Positions 4,865-13,081 of a stretch of 64,000 bases of DNA are shown here, piece by piece. The notes under the pieces were generated by a model. The model ran no database searches. It was given only the letters and a program-made list of their open reading frames with translations, and was not told the origin of the DNA. The stretch's first letter is position 1. Each line of letters starts with the position of its first letter. Both the position numbers and the translations under genes were made by a program. Source of the stretch: Geminicoccaceae bacterium (GTDB lineage: Bacteria > Pseudomonadota > Alphaproteobacteria > Geminicoccales > Geminicoccaceae); assembly GCA_025062095.1 (NCBI GenBank), contig JANXAZ010000013.1, forward strand, positions 1-64,000, in the 5' to 3' direction.

Positions 4865-6178
4865 ATGGGAACCGCCGCGATCGGCAGGAGGGGGTTCACC
4901 GCGCTCTTGGGCGCGGGGCTCGCGCTCGGTGCGGCCGTGCCGCGCTCCGAAGCGACGACCGTGGTCCGTACGACCGCGCGGATCGTCGTCGTGGGTGGGG
5001 GCGCGGCGGGCACGACGATGGCCAACCGGCTCGCCCGGCGGCTCGAAGGTGCCGCGATCACGGTCGTCGATCCGCGCCGCGAGCATCTTTACCAGCCGGG
5101 CTACTCCTTGGTCGCGGCGGGGCTCAAGCCGGCCGCTTATGTGATCGACGGCCGCACCCGCGATTGGCTGCCGGCCGGCGTGCGCCTCGTCGAAGAGGAA
5201 GCGGCGGAGATCGATCCCGAGGCGCGGCGGGTGACCACGCGCAGCGGCACGCGGTTGGAGTACGACTTTCTGATCGTGGCCACCGGCCTCGAACTGGACT
5301 GGAGCGCGATCGAAGGCTTCTCCCTCGACCTCGTGGGCAAAAACGGCATCGGCGCGCTCTACGCGGGGCCGGAGTTCGCCGAGCGCACGGCGCGGGCGGT
5401 GCGCGGCTTCGCGGAGAAGGGCGGGGTCGCGGTTTTCACGCGACCGAACACCGAGATGAAATGTGCCGGTGCGCCGATCAAACACACCTTCATCGTCGAG
5501 GACATCGTCGCGACCGCCGGCAATCGGAAGAAAAGCGAGATCGTTTATTGCTCGAACAGCAAGGTCCTCTTCTCGGTGCCGATCGTCTCCGAGCGGGTGC
5601 GCATGCTGTTCCACGAGCGCGGCATCCAGATACGCTACGAACACGTGTTGCGGGCGATCGATCCGGTGCGCCGAATCGCGACGTTCGCGACGCCGGAGGG
5701 CACGAAAGAAATCGGCTACGATTACATCCACGTCGTCCCGCCCATGCGCGCACCCGAGGTGGTGCGCAACTCGCCCCTTCCCTGGGCCGAGCGGTGGAAG
5801 GGCCAATACTGGGTCGAGGTCGATCAGAAGACCTTGCGCCACCGTCGCTATCCCGAGGTGTTCGCGCTCGGCGACGTGGCGGGGGTCCCCAAGGGCAAGA
5901 CCGCGGCTTCCGTCAAATGGCAGGCGCCGGTCGTCGAAGACCAGCTCGTGTCGCAGATCCAGGGGCGCGAAGGGACCGAGACCTACAACGGCTACACCTC
6001 CTGCCCGCTCATCACCCGCATCGGTCGGGCGATGCTGATCGAATTCGATTACAACGACAACCTCCTGCCCAGCTTCCCGGGCGTGATCGCTCCGCTCGAG
6101 GAGCTCTGGATCACCTGGCTCATGAAAGAGATCGCCTTGAAACCCACGTACAACGCGATGTTGCGCGGGCTCGCGTGA
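4865..6178 (+). CDS. sqr: Sulfide:quinone oxidoreductase, type II, with Tat-like leader
   Basis: A 437-aa flavoprotein of the two-dinucleotide-binding-domain family. The FAD-binding GxGxxG is at about residues 42-47 (VVGGGAAGT) and a second FAD segment, YPEVFALGDVAG, lies near residues 333-344. The two redox-active cysteines sit at C200 (KCAGAPIKH) and C380 (YTSCPLIT), matching in position and surroundings the active pair of mitochondrial-type (type II) SQR. The C-terminal amphipathic region (WITWLMKEIALKP) would bind the membrane. SQR oxidises sulfide to persulfide/polysulfide and reduces quinone. Unusually for this group there is an N-terminal GRRGFTALLGAGLALG stretch resembling a Tat signal peptide, suggesting export as a folded flavoprotein. 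The next gene, 13 bp downstream, encodes a small membrane protein and is probably in the same operon. Confidence 0.88.
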   Translation: MGTAAIGRRGFTALLGAGLALGAAVPRSEATTVVRTTARIVVVGGGAAGTTMANRLARRLEGAAITVVDPRREHLYQPGYSLVAAGLKPAAYVIDGRTRDWLPAGVRLVEEEAAEIDPEARRVTTRSGTRLEYDFLIVATGLELDWSAIEGFSLDLVGKNGIGALYAGPEFAERTARAVRGFAEKGGVAVFTRPNTEMKCAGAPIKHTFIVEDIVATAGNRKKSEIVYCSNSKVLFSVPIVSERVRMLFHERGIQIRYEHVLRAIDPVRRIATFATPEGTKEIGYDYIHVVPPMRAPEVVRNSPLPWAERWKGQYWVEVDQKTLRHRRYPEVFALGDVAGVPKGKTAASVKWQAPVVEDQLVSQIQGREGTETYNGYTSCPLITRIGRAMLIEFDYNDNLLPSFPGVIAPLEELWITWLMKEIALKPTYNAMLRGLA

Positions 6179-6191
6179 GGGGAGCCGGGCG

Positions 6192-6614
6192 ATGAAAGAA
6201 CTGTCGCTTTCGACCTTGATCGCGGTGTTCGAGGAGATGTTCGGCCGCGAACTCTTCTGGGGTCTGGTGGCGGCGGCGGTGCTCGTCACGGGTCTGTTCA
6301 TCGCCGTGCTCGTCCGCGAGCACGCATTGGAGTCGCGACGCTTCCTGCGCGCCGAGATCACCGCCCCCCTCGGAGCGGGGGCGGCGGTGGCCTTTTTGTT
6401 CTGGATCACGAACTCGAGCCCCGCGCACATCGGCGGCCCGATCGACTGGGTGATCCTCGCTCTGGTCGCGGTATTCGGAGGCGGCGGGCTCGCGATGGCG
6501 AGCTACGTGGTCATGGGGCTCGTATCGTGGCGCCGGTCCGAGCCCCAGAAGCGTGTGCGAAGCGCGTCGGAGGTGGGTGAACGTCGGGCCGCGGCGCTCC
6601 AGGAAGCGGCGTGA
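6192..6614 (+). CDS. Small inner-membrane protein next to sqr (DUF5368-like)
   Basis: A 140-aa protein with three predicted membrane segments (about residues 22-42, 58-75 and 84-108) and a basic, cytosolic-type C-terminal tail. The start MKELSLSTLIAVFEEMFGR and the segment IGGPIDW resemble a family of unknown function common in alphaproteobacteria (recalled as DUF5368; not verified). It follows sqr by 13 bp on the same strand, so a role in anchoring or electron transfer for the exported SQR is a reasonable guess, but no catalytic or cofactor-binding motif is visible. Confidence 0.72.
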   Translation: MKELSLSTLIAVFEEMFGRELFWGLVAAAVLVTGLFIAVLVREHALESRRFLRAEITAPLGAGAAVAFLFWITNSSPAHIGGPIDWVILALVAVFGGGGLAMASYVVMGLVSWRRSEPQKRVRSASEVGERRAAALQEAA

Positions 6615-7255
6615 CCGCCGCGCGGCCCGCGATGCGCCGTGCCCGGTCGGAACGGCGACCGCGCGCGATCGGACCCGAGGCTCTCGGCTGCGGCCGTCGG
6701 GCGGACTTCCGCGGGGATCCGAGAGCGCGCTTTCGTCGGCGCGCGAACGGCGCGGCCCGTCCTCGAGAACTCCGAGCGGCGCGGTCTCCGCTCCGGCTCG
6801 CTCGGTTCGGTCGGCGGCGCGGCCGCACGCGGCCTCTTTCGCGCTGCGCCCGGCTGCGCGTCGCGACGGGCAGGACGCGGCTCGTCGCCGCTCGATCGCT
6901 CCTCGTCGCGACGGCCCCCGCGCGTCGGGCTTCGCCGCGGCCCGTCGCGATCCGGTCTCGAACACGTGCTCGCCTCCCGCGCGGGACCGACCGGCGCGGG
7001 TCTCGAAACGGTCGACGATGCTCCGGAGGGCCGACGTGCCCCCGCGGCTCGTCCCGCACCGGGCAGGTCGTCGTCCGACCGCAGCGCGAAAGCGGGCAGC
7101 CGCCCGCGCCCTTCGCGCGTGCAGGCTCCTTCGTTCGGCGTATGGAGGCGTGCCCCGGAGGCTGCGCCCGGCTCCCGCGGCGAGCGATTGACTCGACCGC
7201 GTGAACATCTCAGCAACATCATGATGGCTGGGAGGCGGTCGGGAGACGCGTACGG
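6615..7255. other. 641-bp spacer without a recognisable gene
   Basis: Very GC-rich, with overlapping open frames on both strands that give only Arg/Pro/Ala-rich peptides. No promoter, terminator or RNA gene is recognised; the last 25 bp hold the purine-rich ribosome-binding region of the following gene. Confidence 0.5.
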
Positions 7256-7477
7256 ATGAGGTCGTTCGACTATTACATCGTCGTTGAACATCCAGAGCTC
7301 GGGAAGGTTCGTACGATCCGGGGTGCTACCGCCGAAGAAGTCGAACAAAAAGCTCGCGCCCAAACGATCGCTCGGGACGAGCAATATGCGCGCAAGCTGG
7401 AGGCGGCCGCACGGCAGGCGAAGCGACAAGAGACCGAACGCTCCAAGGCGAAGGCCCGCGAACCGACGCGTGATTAG
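7256..7477 (+). CDS. N-terminal fragment of Mrr-type restriction endonuclease, ended by in-frame TAG
   Basis: A 73-aa frame, MRSFDYYIVVEHPELGKVR followed by a Lys/Arg/Glu-rich helical stretch. This is the usual N-terminus of about 550-aa restriction-endonuclease proteins in which a short beta domain and a charged coiled region precede a segment ending in LENIL...IDDTID. The frame stops at TAG (7475-7477), yet the very next codons in the same frame read AGARNRLENILRETSAIDDTID, the expected continuation. The two pieces therefore look like one gene broken by a single amber codon. The start is supported by GGGAG ten bases upstream of the ATG. On its own the fragment would have no enzymatic activity. 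Confidence 0.6.
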   Translation: MRSFDYYIVVEHPELGKVRTIRGATAEEVEQKARAQTIARDEQYARKLEAAARQAKRQETERSKAKAREPTRD

Positions 7478-7609
7478 GCAGGAGCACGCAACCGGCTCGA
7501 GAACATTCTCCGAGAAACATCGGCGATCGACGATACGATCGATCGGGATGCGCTGCTCGATCGGCGCAGCTTCGACGAACCCGAGCCGGAACCGCCTCCC
7601 GGTCCGGTC

Positions 7610-8908
7610 TTGCCGCCCGAACCCGAACCACTCCCTTTCCGTCCCTCGTTCTGGGCCCGATGGTCGTCTCGAGCGCGACGACGGGCGCGCGAGCGCTGGG
7701 AGCAGACGGTGGCGGCGCAGCGCGCGCTCTGCCACGAAGAATGTGAGCGGATCCGTCGCGACCACGGATCGGCGCTCGACAAGTGGCGGAGCGAACGAGC
7801 CGCGTGGCTCGAGCAGAAGATGGAATTCCTGGAACGTCAGACCGCTCGAAACGCCGCCATCGAAGCGCAAAAAATTCGCTACATGAACAAGGATCCCGAT
7901 GCCGTTGCAGAATATTGCGATATGGTGCTTTCGCGTTCGGACTATCCTCCGGAAATCACGAAAGACTTCCACGTTGACTATGATCCCGAGAGAGGAACAC
8001 TTGTCGTAGACTATGTACCACCCTCTGAAGACACTCTTCCGATGATACGTGAAGTCAAATATGTCCCTTCGCGCGAAGAATTCGAATCGAAGCCGTTGGG
8101 CAAACGAGAGGCGGACCGTTTTTACAATCGCGTGATCTGCAGCATTGCGTTGAGAACACTCCACGAACTGTTCGAAGCGGATCGAGCCGACGCTTTGAAA
8201 GACTGTGTTTTCAACGGCTTCGTCGACTTCGTCGACCGCAGAGACGGGCGAAAGAAAAAGACCTGTATCCTCACGGTGCGCGCGGAAAAAAGTCGTTTCG
8301 CTGCCATTGACCTCGCGAATGTCGATCCCTGCGAATGCGTGCACTCGTTGGGTGCTCTGTGTGCCCCGAATCTGCGCGACCGGATTCCCGTGAAGCCGAT
8401 GCTTCAATTGTCTCGCGACGATCAGCGCTTCGTGCCGGAGCTGGATCTGGGGGAGCGCATCGAGGCCGGGATGAACGTCGCGGCACTGGGGTGGGAGGAG
8501 TTCGAACATCTCGTGCGGATGATCCTGGAGAAGGAGGTCGCGGCGGGCGGCGGCGAGGTCAAAATCACCCGCGCGAGCCGCGATGCGGGCGTGGATGCGG
8601 TGATCTTCGATCCCGATCCGATCCGAGGCGGCAAGATCGTCGTCCAGGCCAAACGCTATACGAATACGGTCGGTGTTTCGGTGGTGCGCGATCTCTACGG
8701 AACGATTTTGAACGAAGGCGCTTCCAAGGGCATTCTCATCACGACGTCGCGGTTCGGCCCCGATGCGTACGATTTCGCGAAGAACAAGCCGATCGTCCTG
8801 ATCGACGGCAACAACCTTCTTTATTTGCTCGAAAAGCAGGGTCTGAAAGCGAAGATCGATCTCGACGAAGCGAAAAGGCTCGGCGTCGGCCTGCAGCGCT
8901 TCCGCTGA
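7610..8908 (+). CDS. Mrr-type restriction endonuclease, C-terminal part (gene interrupted at 7475)
   Basis: Reads in the same frame as the fragment at 7256-7477. The listed start is a TTG (7610); the frame is actually open from 7478, directly after the TAG, and the residues between 7478 and 7610 are conserved-looking, so the true gene is probably 7256-8908 (550 codons plus stop) with one nonsense codon. The C-terminal 130 residues form an Mrr_cat domain: LGWEEFEHLVRMIL, then the PD-(D/E)xK variant DAGVDAVIF...VVQAKRY, and TTSRFGPDAYDFA. Such enzymes are usually defence nucleases, some acting on modified DNA. No methyltransferase gene lies nearby, consistent with a modification-dependent or stand-alone enzyme. 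Whether the protein is made (restart, or amber readthrough) cannot be told. Confidence 0.78.
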   Translation: MPPEPEPLPFRPSFWARWSSRARRRARERWEQTVAAQRALCHEECERIRRDHGSALDKWRSERAAWLEQKMEFLERQTARNAAIEAQKIRYMNKDPDAVAEYCDMVLSRSDYPPEITKDFHVDYDPERGTLVVDYVPPSEDTLPMIREVKYVPSREEFESKPLGKREADRFYNRVICSIALRTLHELFEADRADALKDCVFNGFVDFVDRRDGRKKKTCILTVRAEKSRFAAIDLANVDPCECVHSLGALCAPNLRDRIPVKPMLQLSRDDQRFVPELDLGERIEAGMNVAALGWEEFEHLVRMILEKEVAAGGGEVKITRASRDAGVDAVIFDPDPIRGGKIVVQAKRYTNTVGVSVVRDLYGTILNEGASKGILITTSRFGPDAYDFAKNKPIVLIDGNNLLYLLEKQGLKAKIDLDEAKRLGVGLQRFR

Positions 8909-9013
8909 GAAAGCCGATCCTGACACCGGGACGGGCTCGAAGCGGCGACGGCCGAGCGCTCCGGCGCGCGCTTGCGACCCTCTGTTCGGCTCGCGCGCGT
9001 CGCGGTCTCGCGA

Positions 9014-10942
9014 TCAGACCCTCCGCCACGCGAGGTGGGCCAGCTGCACCGAGCCCGGACGGGAGACCGCGAGCGCCGACGCGCCGGGCGCCGGCTCCCC
9101 TTTCTTCTGCGGATCGGCGGCGGGCCGACAGCCGACGAGGTCGACCGGCTCCCCGGCGTAAGACGCGAGCCAGTTCGCCAACGCCTCCGTCGGGAGTGCG
9201 GGTGTCCAGAGATAACCCTGCGCCGCGTCGCATCCCAGACGGCGCAAGGTGCGAGCCTGCTCGAGGGTCTCGACGCCCTCGGCCACGACCGTCGCCCGCA
9301 AGTCGCGGGCGAGACCGATGATCGACTTGACGATGCCGCGCGAGACGGGAGAGCGGCTCATCTCGACCACGAATCGCCGATCGACCTTGATCACGTCGAC
9401 CTGCAACTGCCGCAGATGGGCTAGGGACGCGTATCCGGTACCGAAATCGTCGAGGGCCACGCGCACTCCCGCGGCGCGCAGGGCGCTCAGGACCGGCTGC
9501 AGGCGGTCGGTCGTTCCGTCGTCGAGAGCCTCCTCGCTGATTTCGATCTCGATCTGAGAACCCGTGGCTCGCAGACGCTCCGCGAGTTCGCCGAGCCGCG
9601 AGGCGAGCTCGTCCCAGAAGAGCTGCCGACGGGAGAGGTTCAACGCGACGCGGCCCGCCCAACCGATCCGCTCGTGCAACTCGGCGACATTCTCTCCGAC
9701 GGAGCGGATGCACCACTCGGCGAACCGGTGGACGAAAGGCGAACGCTCGATGACGGCGAGGATGCTGTCCGGGCGATGCTCCTTCAGCTCGGGATCCTCG
9801 AAGCGCAGCAGCGCCTCGAGGCCGACGACCTGGCCCGTCGCGATGTCGAGCTGAGGCTGCCAGTGAAGCCGCAGACCATGACCGTCGAGGGCGCGCACGA
9901 AAGCGGGCAGGATCGCCGGTCGCTTTTCCCTCTGAGACGAGAGCGCGACGAACACGAAGCGGGCGCGCCCCGAGCGCTTGGCCTCGTAGAGTGCGTCATC
10001 AGCCGCGCGCAGGAGCTCCTGCTCCGTGCAGCACTCGGCGCCGCAGACCGTGCCCCCGATGCTGACCCGGAAATCGATCTGGTCGCGGCCGCGCTGCAAG
10101 GGGGCGGCCATCGCCGCCAAAATCCGCTCGGCGACGGCCTCGACCTCGAACCGCGAGCGGATCCCGCTCAGCACCACGCCGAGCTCGTCCCCGCCCAGTC
10201 GGGCCACCGTGTCCACCTCGCGCAGGCAGGCGCGCAGACGACGCGCGACCTCGACGAAGACCGCGTCGCCGGCCTCGTGGCCGAAGCTGTCGTTGATCAA
10301 CTTGAAGTGGTCGACGTCGAGCCGCAACAAGCCGACCCCGTTGCCGCTTCGCCGGGCCGCGCGCAGCGCCGCCGCCAGCGCTTCCGAAAACAGCCGCCGG
10401 TTGGCGAGGCCGGTCAACGGATCGTGCAGGGCGAGCTCGTGGAGCTGCGCGGCGAGCGCGCGGTGTTCTTCACGAAGGGCGGTGACGTAGCCGTCCGCGA
10501 CGTCGCCGGCGAAAGCCAGGCTGCGGCGCAACATCCGCCGCAGGACGGCGGCCGTCTCTGTCGGCGGCAGCACCGGCTCGAGCCGCTCGGCGAGGCGGCC
10601 GACCATCTCGTCGAGCGCTCCCAGAAACGAACGGAGGTCGATGCCCCACTGAAAATGGGCCTCGCCCACGGCGCGCGCCTGCGCGGGATCCGTCGCCTCC
10701 GGCCCGAGCAGGTCGGCCAGCCAGCGGGCGTGCCCGGCCCGCATCTTCTCCAGTCGTCGTTCGCTCGCGAGAAGAGCGGCGTGTTTCGGATTCGCGGCGA
10801 GCGAATCGGCGAGCTCGGAGCTGACGGCCTCGACGATCTGCGCGAAGATCGGCGACAGCGCTTCCTCCGGCGCCTCCGGCCGAGACGGGCCGTCGTCGGC
10901 TCGATCGACGGCAAGGGGCTGGGAACAGTCCGTTCGATCCAT
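9014..10942 (-). CDS. Globin-coupled GGDEF-EAL protein (c-di-GMP turnover)
   Basis: A 642-aa cytoplasmic signalling protein. Residues about 25-155 resemble a protoglobin sensor: a short helix with KMRAGHARWLADLL, whose His would be the proximal haem ligand, followed by VGEAHFQWGIDLRSFLGAL. The GGDEF domain (about 180-340) has LGGDEL instead of GGDEF, with an RxxD inhibitory site (REVD) five residues before it. The EAL domain (about 365-600) keeps EALLRF, ALNLSRRQL, ALDDFGTG, the Lys in VIKVDR, AEGVET and AQGYLW, so it should be an active phosphodiesterase. Together this suggests an oxygen- or NO-responsive enzyme making and/or degrading c-di-GMP, like DosC-type proteins. The start MDRTDCSQ is preferred over upstream in-frame codons because the upstream peptide is spacer-like. 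It is divergent from an XRE-type regulator. Confidence 0.85.
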   Translation of the reverse strand: MDRTDCSQPLAVDRADDGPSRPEAPEEALSPIFAQIVEAVSSELADSLAANPKHAALLASERRLEKMRAGHARWLADLLGPEATDPAQARAVGEAHFQWGIDLRSFLGALDEMVGRLAERLEPVLPPTETAAVLRRMLRRSLAFAGDVADGYVTALREEHRALAAQLHELALHDPLTGLANRRLFSEALAAALRAARRSGNGVGLLRLDVDHFKLINDSFGHEAGDAVFVEVARRLRACLREVDTVARLGGDELGVVLSGIRSRFEVEAVAERILAAMAAPLQRGRDQIDFRVSIGGTVCGAECCTEQELLRAADDALYEAKRSGRARFVFVALSSQREKRPAILPAFVRALDGHGLRLHWQPQLDIATGQVVGLEALLRFEDPELKEHRPDSILAVIERSPFVHRFAEWCIRSVGENVAELHERIGWAGRVALNLSRRQLFWDELASRLGELAERLRATGSQIEIEISEEALDDGTTDRLQPVLSALRAAGVRVALDDFGTGYASLAHLRQLQVDVIKVDRRFVVEMSRSPVSRGIVKSIIGLARDLRATVVAEGVETLEQARTLRRLGCDAAQGYLWTPALPTEALANWLASYAGEPVDLVGCRPAADPQKKGEPAPGASALAVSRPGSVQLAHLAWRRV

Positions 10943-11294
10943 GGCGCGCCTCGCTGGCACCGATCGCCCCGAATGTTCCCCTATGGAGCCTAACGAATTG
11001 TAGCGTTCCCGTCTGGCGCGAAACGCGGCGGAGAACAATATACGTATTGATGCGAATACGCGGAGCATCTCGCGAGAGCGATCGCCGCGAGCCAGGTTGC
11101 GCCCCGCTCCTCGCGAGAATAGGAGCGGCCCGTCCTCGCGGATCGGCGCTTCCGACCTGAGCGCGGTGGGTCGAGAACGAGCCAAAGGCGGTCGGAAAAA
11201 CTCTCTCGGCGCTTCGCTCGCCGAGCGCGCGCGGGCACGACGACCCTTCGTGCTCGGTCGCTTCCGCCCACTTGCTCGTCGATGAGGATGCGCG
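10943..11294. other. 352-bp divergent control region
   Basis: Lies between the divergent c-di-GMP protein and the XRE-type regulator. It contains an AT-richer patch at about 10990-11060 (unusual here), including the palindrome listed separately, and so probably holds one or both promoters. No gene is recognised. Confidence 0.45.
11036..11049. promoter_or_regulatory. Short palindrome CAATA-TACG-TATTG
   Basis: Five-base perfect arms around TACG (with ATACGTAT inside), in the AT-rich patch between the divergent c-di-GMP gene and the XRE-type regulator gene. Its placement about 95 bp before the c-di-GMP start fits an operator or promoter element; the adjacent XRE regulator would be the obvious candidate ligand. 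Inference only. Confidence 0.3.
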
Positions 11295-11939
11295 ATGAAG
11301 CCGGCGCCGGAGAGCTGGGCCCGATACATCAGCAGATACCGCCGCTTCGAAGGCCTCTCTCAGAAAGCGGCCGCCCGTATCTTGGGGGTCTCGCAAGCGA
11401 CACTTTCCCGCTGGGAAGCTGGCAAACAGGTGCCGGCCCTCTCCACCCGACGGCGGCTGCAGGAACGAATCGAGGGGAGGACCGGCGGAGCCCGTCGGAC
11501 GATCGTCGCAGCGGTGGAGAGGTCACCGATCGTCGTGATCCTCTTCGACCGCCGTCGCCGGCTCCTGGCCGCATCGGCCGCGGCGCGCGACCTGGCGACG
11601 CGGACGGCTCCGGCCGAAAGCGGCCAGGGCGAGGAGGCGATCCTGTTCCTGCTCGGCCCCCGGGCCGAGGAAGTGTCGAGCGGATTCCGCGAGGACGAGC
11701 TCGGGAGGATCGACCCCGTTCTGGTCGAAACCCGCGTCGAATTGCTCTGCCGCGACGGTACGGCGATGACCCTCGACCAGCTCTGGGTCCCGACCCTGTG
11801 CGCGCAGGGCGAATATCTTTACCGAGTAGAAATGGCCCGCCTACCGGCCGAGGGCGATCGCTTCCCGGTCTCGAGGAAAAGCGCGAGCGCGAGGCTCTGG
11901 GTCCGACCTCTCGCGCGCGACGCCCTCGAGGCCCTCTGA
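11295..11939 (+). CDS. XRE-type helix-turn-helix regulator with PAS-like C-terminal region
   Basis: A 214-aa protein. Residues about 8-58 are an XRE/Cro-type HTH (YISRYRRFEGLSQKAAARIL followed by GVSQATLSRWEAGKQVP). After a basic linker, residues about 72-180 read as a PAS-like fold (SPIVVILFDRRRRLLAASAAARDL...) with no visible cofactor cysteine/histidine signature. It is presumably a DNA-binding sensor; the signal is unknown. It is transcribed away from the globin-coupled c-di-GMP gene and converges on pqqE, with only 26 bp between the two stop codons. The ATG at 11295 gives the complete HTH; the upstream frame is spacer-like. Confidence 0.72.
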   Translation: MKPAPESWARYISRYRRFEGLSQKAAARILGVSQATLSRWEAGKQVPALSTRRRLQERIEGRTGGARRTIVAAVERSPIVVILFDRRRRLLAASAAARDLATRTAPAESGQGEEAILFLLGPRAEEVSSGFREDELGRIDPVLVETRVELLCRDGTAMTLDQLWVPTLCAQGEYLYRVEMARLPAEGDRFPVSRKSASARLWVRPLARDALEAL

Positions 11940-11965
11940 CGGCCGAGCCGATCGCGAACGGGTTC

Positions 11966-13081
11966 TCACGCCGGGACGGGCTCGAGGCGGCGGTAGCGGA
12001 ACGGAGGCGGTGCGGCCGCGGCTTCGGCCTCCGCCAGGGCCGTGATCCGCGCGTGATGGGGCGAGAGCGCGCAGGCCGGATCCGTCGCCTCGGGATCGCC
12101 CAGAAGCTGCATCGCCTGGCAGCGGCAACCGCCGAAATCGATCTCCCGCCGCGGACAGGAGCGACAGGGCTCCTTCATCCAGTCGAAGCCGCGGAAGCGC
12201 TGGAAGGCCGGGCTCTCCTGCCAGATCCAGCGCAAAGGCGCGTCCTTCACGTTGGCGAACACCAAACCGGGGATCGTGTGCGCGGCGTGGCACGGCAGGG
12301 CGCGTCCGTCCGGTGCGACGACGATCACCGCTCGGCCCCAGCCCGAAGTGCACGGCTTGGGATGGGTCGCGTAATAATCGGGTACGACGAAATCGATGAG
12401 CAGCCGATCGCCGTAGCGCTCCCGCGCGCGCTTCACGATCTCCACCGAGCGGTCGAGCTGGGCCCGGGTGGGCATGAGCGCCGCGCGATTGAGCAGTGCC
12501 CAGCCGTAATATTGCACGTGCGCGACCTCGAGCCGATCGGCGTCGAGCTCGAGCGCGAGCTCGACGAACCTTTCGAGCCGATCGAGGTTGTGGCGGTGAA
12601 CGACGGCGTTGACGGTGAGGGGCAGCCCCAGCCGACGGACGGCGCGCGCGAAGGCGATCTTGCGCGCGAGCGAACCCGTGAAGCCGCCGATGCGGTCGCA
12701 GCCCTCGGGATCGACGTCCTGCACGCTGAGCTGGACGTGGTCGAGCCCGGCGCGCGCGAGCGCCTCGAGCCGCCGCTCCGACACCCCCACCCCGGCGGTG
12801 ATGAGATTGGAATAGAGCTCGAGCGCCCGGGCGCGGGCGACGATCTCCTCGAGATCGGAGCGCAGCGTCGGCTCGCCGCCCGAAAGGTGCAGCTGCAGCA
12901 CGCCGAGCTCCGCCGCCTCCTCGAGCACGCGCAGCCACTGCGCGGTCGAGAGCTCGCGCTCGCGCGCGACGAGCTCGAGCGGATTGGAGCAGTACGGACA
13001 GCCGAGCGGGCAGCGATGGGTGAGCTCGGCCAGAAGCCCGATCGGGGGCTCGCGCCAAGGAGCGGGGGCGAGGGCGCTCAT
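11966..13081 (-). CDS. pqqE: PqqE, radical SAM enzyme of PQQ biosynthesis
   Basis: A 371-aa radical SAM/SPASM protein. The CxxxCxxC motif that binds the SAM [4Fe-4S] cluster is C24-PLG-C28-PY-C31. [11 protein letters not shown] follows as the GGEP SAM-binding motif, and the C-terminal SPASM cysteines are seen in [17 protein letters not shown]. PqqE makes the carbon-carbon link between the conserved Glu and Tyr of PqqA while PqqA is held by PqqD. The start overlaps the pqqD stop (ATGA), so it is coupled to pqqD. It is the last gene of pqqABCDE. Confidence 0.96.

Follow-up and report, generated by a model that had tools for sequence, protein, structure and literature searches.

The first 64,000 nucleotides of contig JANXAZ010000013.1 from a Geminicoccaceae bacterium (hereafter the window) contain a restriction nuclease frame that is interrupted near its start by one TAG codon. 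This arrangement raises two questions: whether the sequences on either side of the TAG are parts of a single protein, and whether the codon marks an inactivated gene, a gene still expressed by another route or an error in the sequence.

An interrupted Mrr-type nuclease frame

The frame runs from an ATG at 7256 through 73 codons to a TAG at 7475-7477, continues with 476 sense codons and closes with a TGA at 8906-8908, giving 551 codons with both stops counted. The TAG is the sole in-frame interruption, with no other stop before the TGA, which confirms the claim of an earlier note on this DNA that two frames in the same phase are parted by one TAG. The features referred to below are:

7256..7474, plus strand: N-terminal piece of 73 codons, covering the predicted hairpin and most of a long helix (translation; relatives' profile, 28.8 bits; fold model)
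7475..7477, plus strand: in-frame TAG, codon 74 (translation; 93 sense, 7 gap and 0 stop among 100 junction-crossing loci)
7478..8908, plus strand: rest of the frame, 476 sense codons and the TGA (PDLC03663, E 5.3e-65)
7709..7711, plus strand: possible restart codon GTG, codon 152 (GGGAG 6 nt upstream, duplex energy -6.5)
8483..8830, plus strand: Mrr_cat nuclease domain (PF04471; Pfam E 4.1e-31), holding D443, D447, Q464 and K466 in read-through numbering
6521..11964, no strand assigned: block that congeners G001 and G002 lack at this site (DNA comparison with the congeners; domain search)

The ATG at 7256 is preceded by GGGAG with a duplex energy of -7.4, a value inside the span of -5.8 to -9.5 seen at the starts of five neighbouring genes. 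A promoter scan returned no candidates (0.4 expected by chance) and a terminator scan returned two (1.9 expected), and an Rfam search of 6400-9100 gave no match.

The downstream piece matched Mrr_cat in Pfam (107.9 bits, cut-off 21; E 4.1e-31) and the mREase_IV model PDLC03663 in PADLOC (218.1 bits, E 5.3e-65). With X at the stop, residues 30-528 of the read-through protein aligned to positions 27-526 of the 544 in PDLC03663 (E 2.1e-61, 206.3 bits). By this match over most of its length the protein belongs to mREase_IV, a "methyl-directed" type IV restriction enzyme in the label of the PADLOC model, and because the open frame is interrupted by the TAG at codon 74 we class it as a broken member. 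It is an Mrr-type nuclease by its Mrr_cat domain and by its acidic residues and QxK motif: D443, D447, Q464 and K466 are invariant across a 61-row alignment. We take these four to be the catalytic residues, in line with the family's general features and the PD-QxK description of EcoKMrr. The PADLOC and Pfam matches, together with the translation, support the earlier note in calling this an Mrr-type nuclease gene with one in-frame TAG, and the retained residues support its statement that the catalytic motif is intact. It had also read the residues right after the TAG as the lead-in to the Mrr core, but about 330 residues separate them from it.

Continuity of the protein across the stop

Homologous loci were compared over the junction. 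The set of 123, which includes near-copies of one another, comprised the 80 best of the 379 loci confirmed in genomes of bacteria and archaea, 37 from viral contigs, five plasmid copies and one from genome G093. A locus was counted as junction-crossing when its best tblastn match ran from query residue 60 or lower to residue 500 or higher. In 100 of the 123 a single best match ran across the junction, and at the TAG column these loci carried a residue in 93 cases, a gap in seven and a stop in none. Once four loci whose match contains stops and one duplicate had been dropped, we aligned 95 distinct, unbroken relatives that span the junction, all with a residue at the TAG column. Against a profile of these 95, built with the window left out, the 73-residue piece scored 28.8 bits and the best of 200 shuffles 6.6, although choosing relatives whose match reached query residue 60 or lower favours this result. 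The whole read-through protein scored 633.4 bits against the same profile, and 50 copies with the first 73 residues shuffled reached at most 602.8.

Two results count against continuity. Alone, the 73-residue piece matched nothing significant in Pfam, in PADLOC (best E 0.012) or, by tblastn, in plasmids, and the PADLOC score fell slightly, from 218.1 bits for the downstream piece by itself to 206.3 for the protein read through. Still, the profile score far above the shuffles and the 100 junction-crossing loci point to more than a chance coincidence of two frames in phase. Judged by these alignments, the sequences on either side of the TAG are one protein when read through, as the earlier note had proposed from the fit of the residues on both sides. 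Homologues that end at the TAG position as a short protein, which it had named as evidence to the contrary, were absent among the 100 junction-crossing loci; the other 23 of the 123 are uninformative.

AlphaFold modelled the read-through protein from 61 rows with a mean pLDDT of 90.0 and a pTM of 0.62. The model opens with a hairpin of strands 6-12 and 17-23. Two long helices come next, at 26-82 and 138-210, then a central alpha/beta part from about 214 to 364, and the nuclease occupies about 405-550. Codon 74 falls within the first helix (block pLDDT 93-97), so that the stop does not coincide with a predicted domain boundary. We rejected a separate short N-terminal protein on three grounds, namely the junction-crossing loci, the position of the stop in mid-helix and the fit of the piece to the family profile. 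A hit in genome G251 (profile 31-93, TAG inside, E 9.3e-4), considered as a second split copy, lies near a contig end in frames unlike the family by eye and was treated as chance.

As a by-product, the family gains a high-confidence model of its N-terminal and central parts, an architecture that scans of Pfam and NCBIfam left without a name. A sequence search against solved structures returned three matches, none better than E 0.26, which we put down to chance. In the viral structure library 11 entries matched at E ≤0.001; their TM-scores over the whole model were low, and several of them are named restriction endonuclease.

Origin of the gene and cause of the stop

In two of five congeners, G001 and G002, a DUF5368 gene adjoins a pqqE-like gene; DNA similarity to the window breaks off at 6520 and picks up again at 11965 in G001 and at 11979 in G002. 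The flanking DNA, used as a query, had no match in the other three. The pqq names near the locus are presumptive assignments from the sequences. The block missing from both congeners, roughly 5.4 kb, holds the nuclease gene, a GGDEF/EAL gene (9014-11329, minus strand) and an XRE-like HTH gene (11295-11939, plus strand). The nuclease gene has a GC content of 0.592 and a GC3 of 0.682, against 0.809-0.897 for seven other window genes. Because the block is missing in two congeners and GC3 is low, the nuclease gene seems to have been acquired horizontally. The left part of the inserted block includes about 640 bases (6615-7255) with an unusually high GC content, 0.73-0.79 in most 300-base steps, and no clear gene. 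Outside the block, the counterpart of window gene 4865-6178 in congener G002 (L228, 9279-9927) was found only as two pieces, with 34 and 47% identity, and is possibly degraded.

The reading that we consider probable is that an acquired, stand-alone Mrr-type nuclease gene of the mREase_IV family was recently inactivated when one nonsense mutation turned codon 74 into a stop. The gene would have arrived horizontally within the block that the two congeners lack. The intact protein, with its predicted N-terminal hairpin, two long helices, central alpha/beta part and C-terminal Mrr nuclease, would have acted as a stand-alone nuclease cutting foreign, probably modified, DNA. With the nonsense mutation, translation would end in the first helix and yield a 73-residue peptide that lacks the nuclease; we infer that the cell does carry this stop and that activity is lost through it.

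Conservation after the stop bears on how recent the event may be. At columns at least 95% conserved among relatives, the window keeps 64 of 68 residues after the stop, and in the four that differ one hydrophobic residue stands in for another. The resulting fraction of 0.941 compares with a mean of 0.984 for the relatives, picked by similarity, of which 6 of 95 are lower. At 90% columns the window keeps 83 of 91 (relatives' mean 0.963; 14 of 95 lower) and at 80% columns 125 of 153, four pre-stop columns counted (mean 0.923; 11 of 95 lower). This below-average conservation may be a sign of some decay or simply of a distant branch. The nearest of 60 relatives in the 61-row alignment is 45% identical to the window protein. 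Overall, the gene appears somewhat more diverged than most relatives and without decay, which fits a recent event. No relative near enough to date it was found among the 60 relatives (the window's genome included), 31 genomes of the order, 385 of the class and 398 of the phylum, samples that overlap.

Among the alternatives, a sequencing or assembly error that hides a gene intact in the organism is unlikely, though with a chance that deserves to be counted. In its favour, the genome is a draft of 143 contigs, and the remainder of the gene has no other stop and little loss of conserved residues. Single-base substitution errors, however, are rarer in modern assemblies. For comparison, a passage of PMC3488263 citing Yu et al. 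reports that, when 138 genes of Brucella abortus S19 recorded with a frameshift or a premature stop were resequenced, 109 proved uncorrupted, a base rate in favour of error that comes from one genome, with frameshifts and stops pooled. A restart downstream of the stop has a smaller chance still. Its most likely site is GTG 7709, and the product, about 399 residues long, would keep the central part and the nuclease but lack the hairpin and first helix. The GTG has GGGAG six bases upstream, and its duplex energy of -6.5 is inside the range of the five neighbouring starts (-5.8 to -9.5); most conserved residues beyond the stop are retained, and residues 214-550 are left whole in the model. Against this, the GTG lies inside the second long helix (138-210), and -6.5 sits between the 5th (-7.8) and 25th (-5.3) percentiles of the window's background start codons (mean -3.5). 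It is improbable that the gene is alive in this form, the restart giving a shortened nuclease and the mutation altering assembly or control of the enzyme instead of removing it.

Readthrough or reassignment of the amber codon, which would yield the full-length protein, would fit a frame that is open on both sides and reads as one protein, yet we regard it as very improbable. Of 26 gene-like window frames picked by composition, 24 end in TGA and two in TAG; the latter are dnaA and a gamma-glutamyltranspeptidase gene, so TAG is an ordinary working stop in this genome. The earlier note had suggested looking for an amber suppressor tRNA, and no CTA anticodon occurs among the 37 tRNA genes found, a set that is incomplete, as it lacks tRNAs for His and Ile and has a single one for Ser. 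A 462-residue frame elsewhere in this genome (G000:C96:7229-7555) gave a weak tRNA-synt_2d match (20.1 bits), the second of its kind. Least probable, by a slight degree, is a reversible ON/OFF switch. Restriction-modification genes can be phase variable, with replication slippage and site-specific recombinases as typical routes according to a section of PMC12707154. At 7475, however, we found neither a repeat tract nor an invertible element: no tandem repeat lies at the stop, the two weak arrays are at 7144-7171 and 8218-8236, and none of the listed repeat pairs has a copy there. The earlier note had left four explanations side by side. Recent inactivation by the nonsense mutation fits best and sequencing error comes next in likelihood, whereas the lack of a repeat at the stop speaks against a switch, and the absence of a CTA anticodon from the incomplete set of 37 tRNA genes and the TAG that ends dnaA speak against readthrough.

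Relatives and known systems

Five plasmid copies, from Pseudochrobactrum, Xanthomonas, Agrobacterium, Methylobacterium and Methylocystis, are annotated as restriction endonuclease and range in length from 495 to 569 residues; a sixth copy, the longer gene of Kitasatospora, was left out. The downstream piece matched 210 plasmid records, one of them over at least 80% of its length, and four phage records, none over 80%. In 11 of 59 other relatives it matched at E ≤0.001, in all of them at the nuclease end only. Among 398 genomes of the phylum sample nine matched at E ≤1e-25, the window's own included, and a stop inside the match occurred only in the window's own copy; in the other eight, the match extends over the TAG region four times, starts just past it twice and is partial twice. 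The class sample (385 genomes) listed one other near-full-length copy, in G093, and the PADLOC model was also matched in 4 of 14 control genomes. On a Pseudochrobactrum algeriensis plasmid (L229, 888-9084), a relative of the nuclease has LexA-family and Cro/CI-family regulators next to it and a RecT-family gene close by, neighbours that suggest prophage carriage.

Other broken copies exist, several of them on metagenome contigs that may hold assembly errors. Locus L099 (Bacillus sp. REN16, 5989-7644) likewise has one in-frame stop in the N-terminal part of the same family, in this case a TGA at query position 97 and not a TAG at codon 74; L079 (Bacillus timonensis) is intact and 94% identical to L099 over 551 residues. 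By this comparison L099 appears to be an independent single-stop break parallel to that of the window gene. L099 and two loci whose match is split between two frames in the N-terminal third (L122 and L087) raised the idea of an N-terminal hot spot for breaks. We make no such claim, since breaks also occur in other places, in L065 (stop at 509), in L167/L168 (probably one event) and in L169 (split between frames), and the search patterns that yielded the loci came from the C-terminal core. In L100 and L140 stops occur only at the C-terminal end of the match.

Overall, the explanation is probably an ordinary one, a defence nuclease of a known kind whose gene is broken in this genome. It adds one more acquired stand-alone restriction nuclease apparently lost by point mutation soon after arrival, and its main use is as a pseudogene annotation.

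Among solved structures, the nuclease part of the model aligns best with the modification-dependent enzymes AspBHI (4oc8_A, Z 12.3, rmsd 2.9 over 125 residues) and MspJI (4f0p_C, Z 11.9, rmsd 3.0 over 126 residues), a likeness confined to model residues 406-533 in a search that barely probed the other parts. EcoKMrr of E. coli K-12, described in an excerpt of PMC12707154 as a winged helix joined to an Mrr-cat domain with a PD-QxK site, shares the QxK-bearing Mrr_cat domain with the window protein. Its N-terminal part is a winged helix, whereas in our model the nuclease follows a hairpin, a pair of long helices and a central part, regions outside 391-531 that the fold search barely probed. Also among the closest known systems is PADLOC mREase_IV itself, whose profile the window protein matches at E 2.1e-61 and from which it differs by the stop at codon 74.
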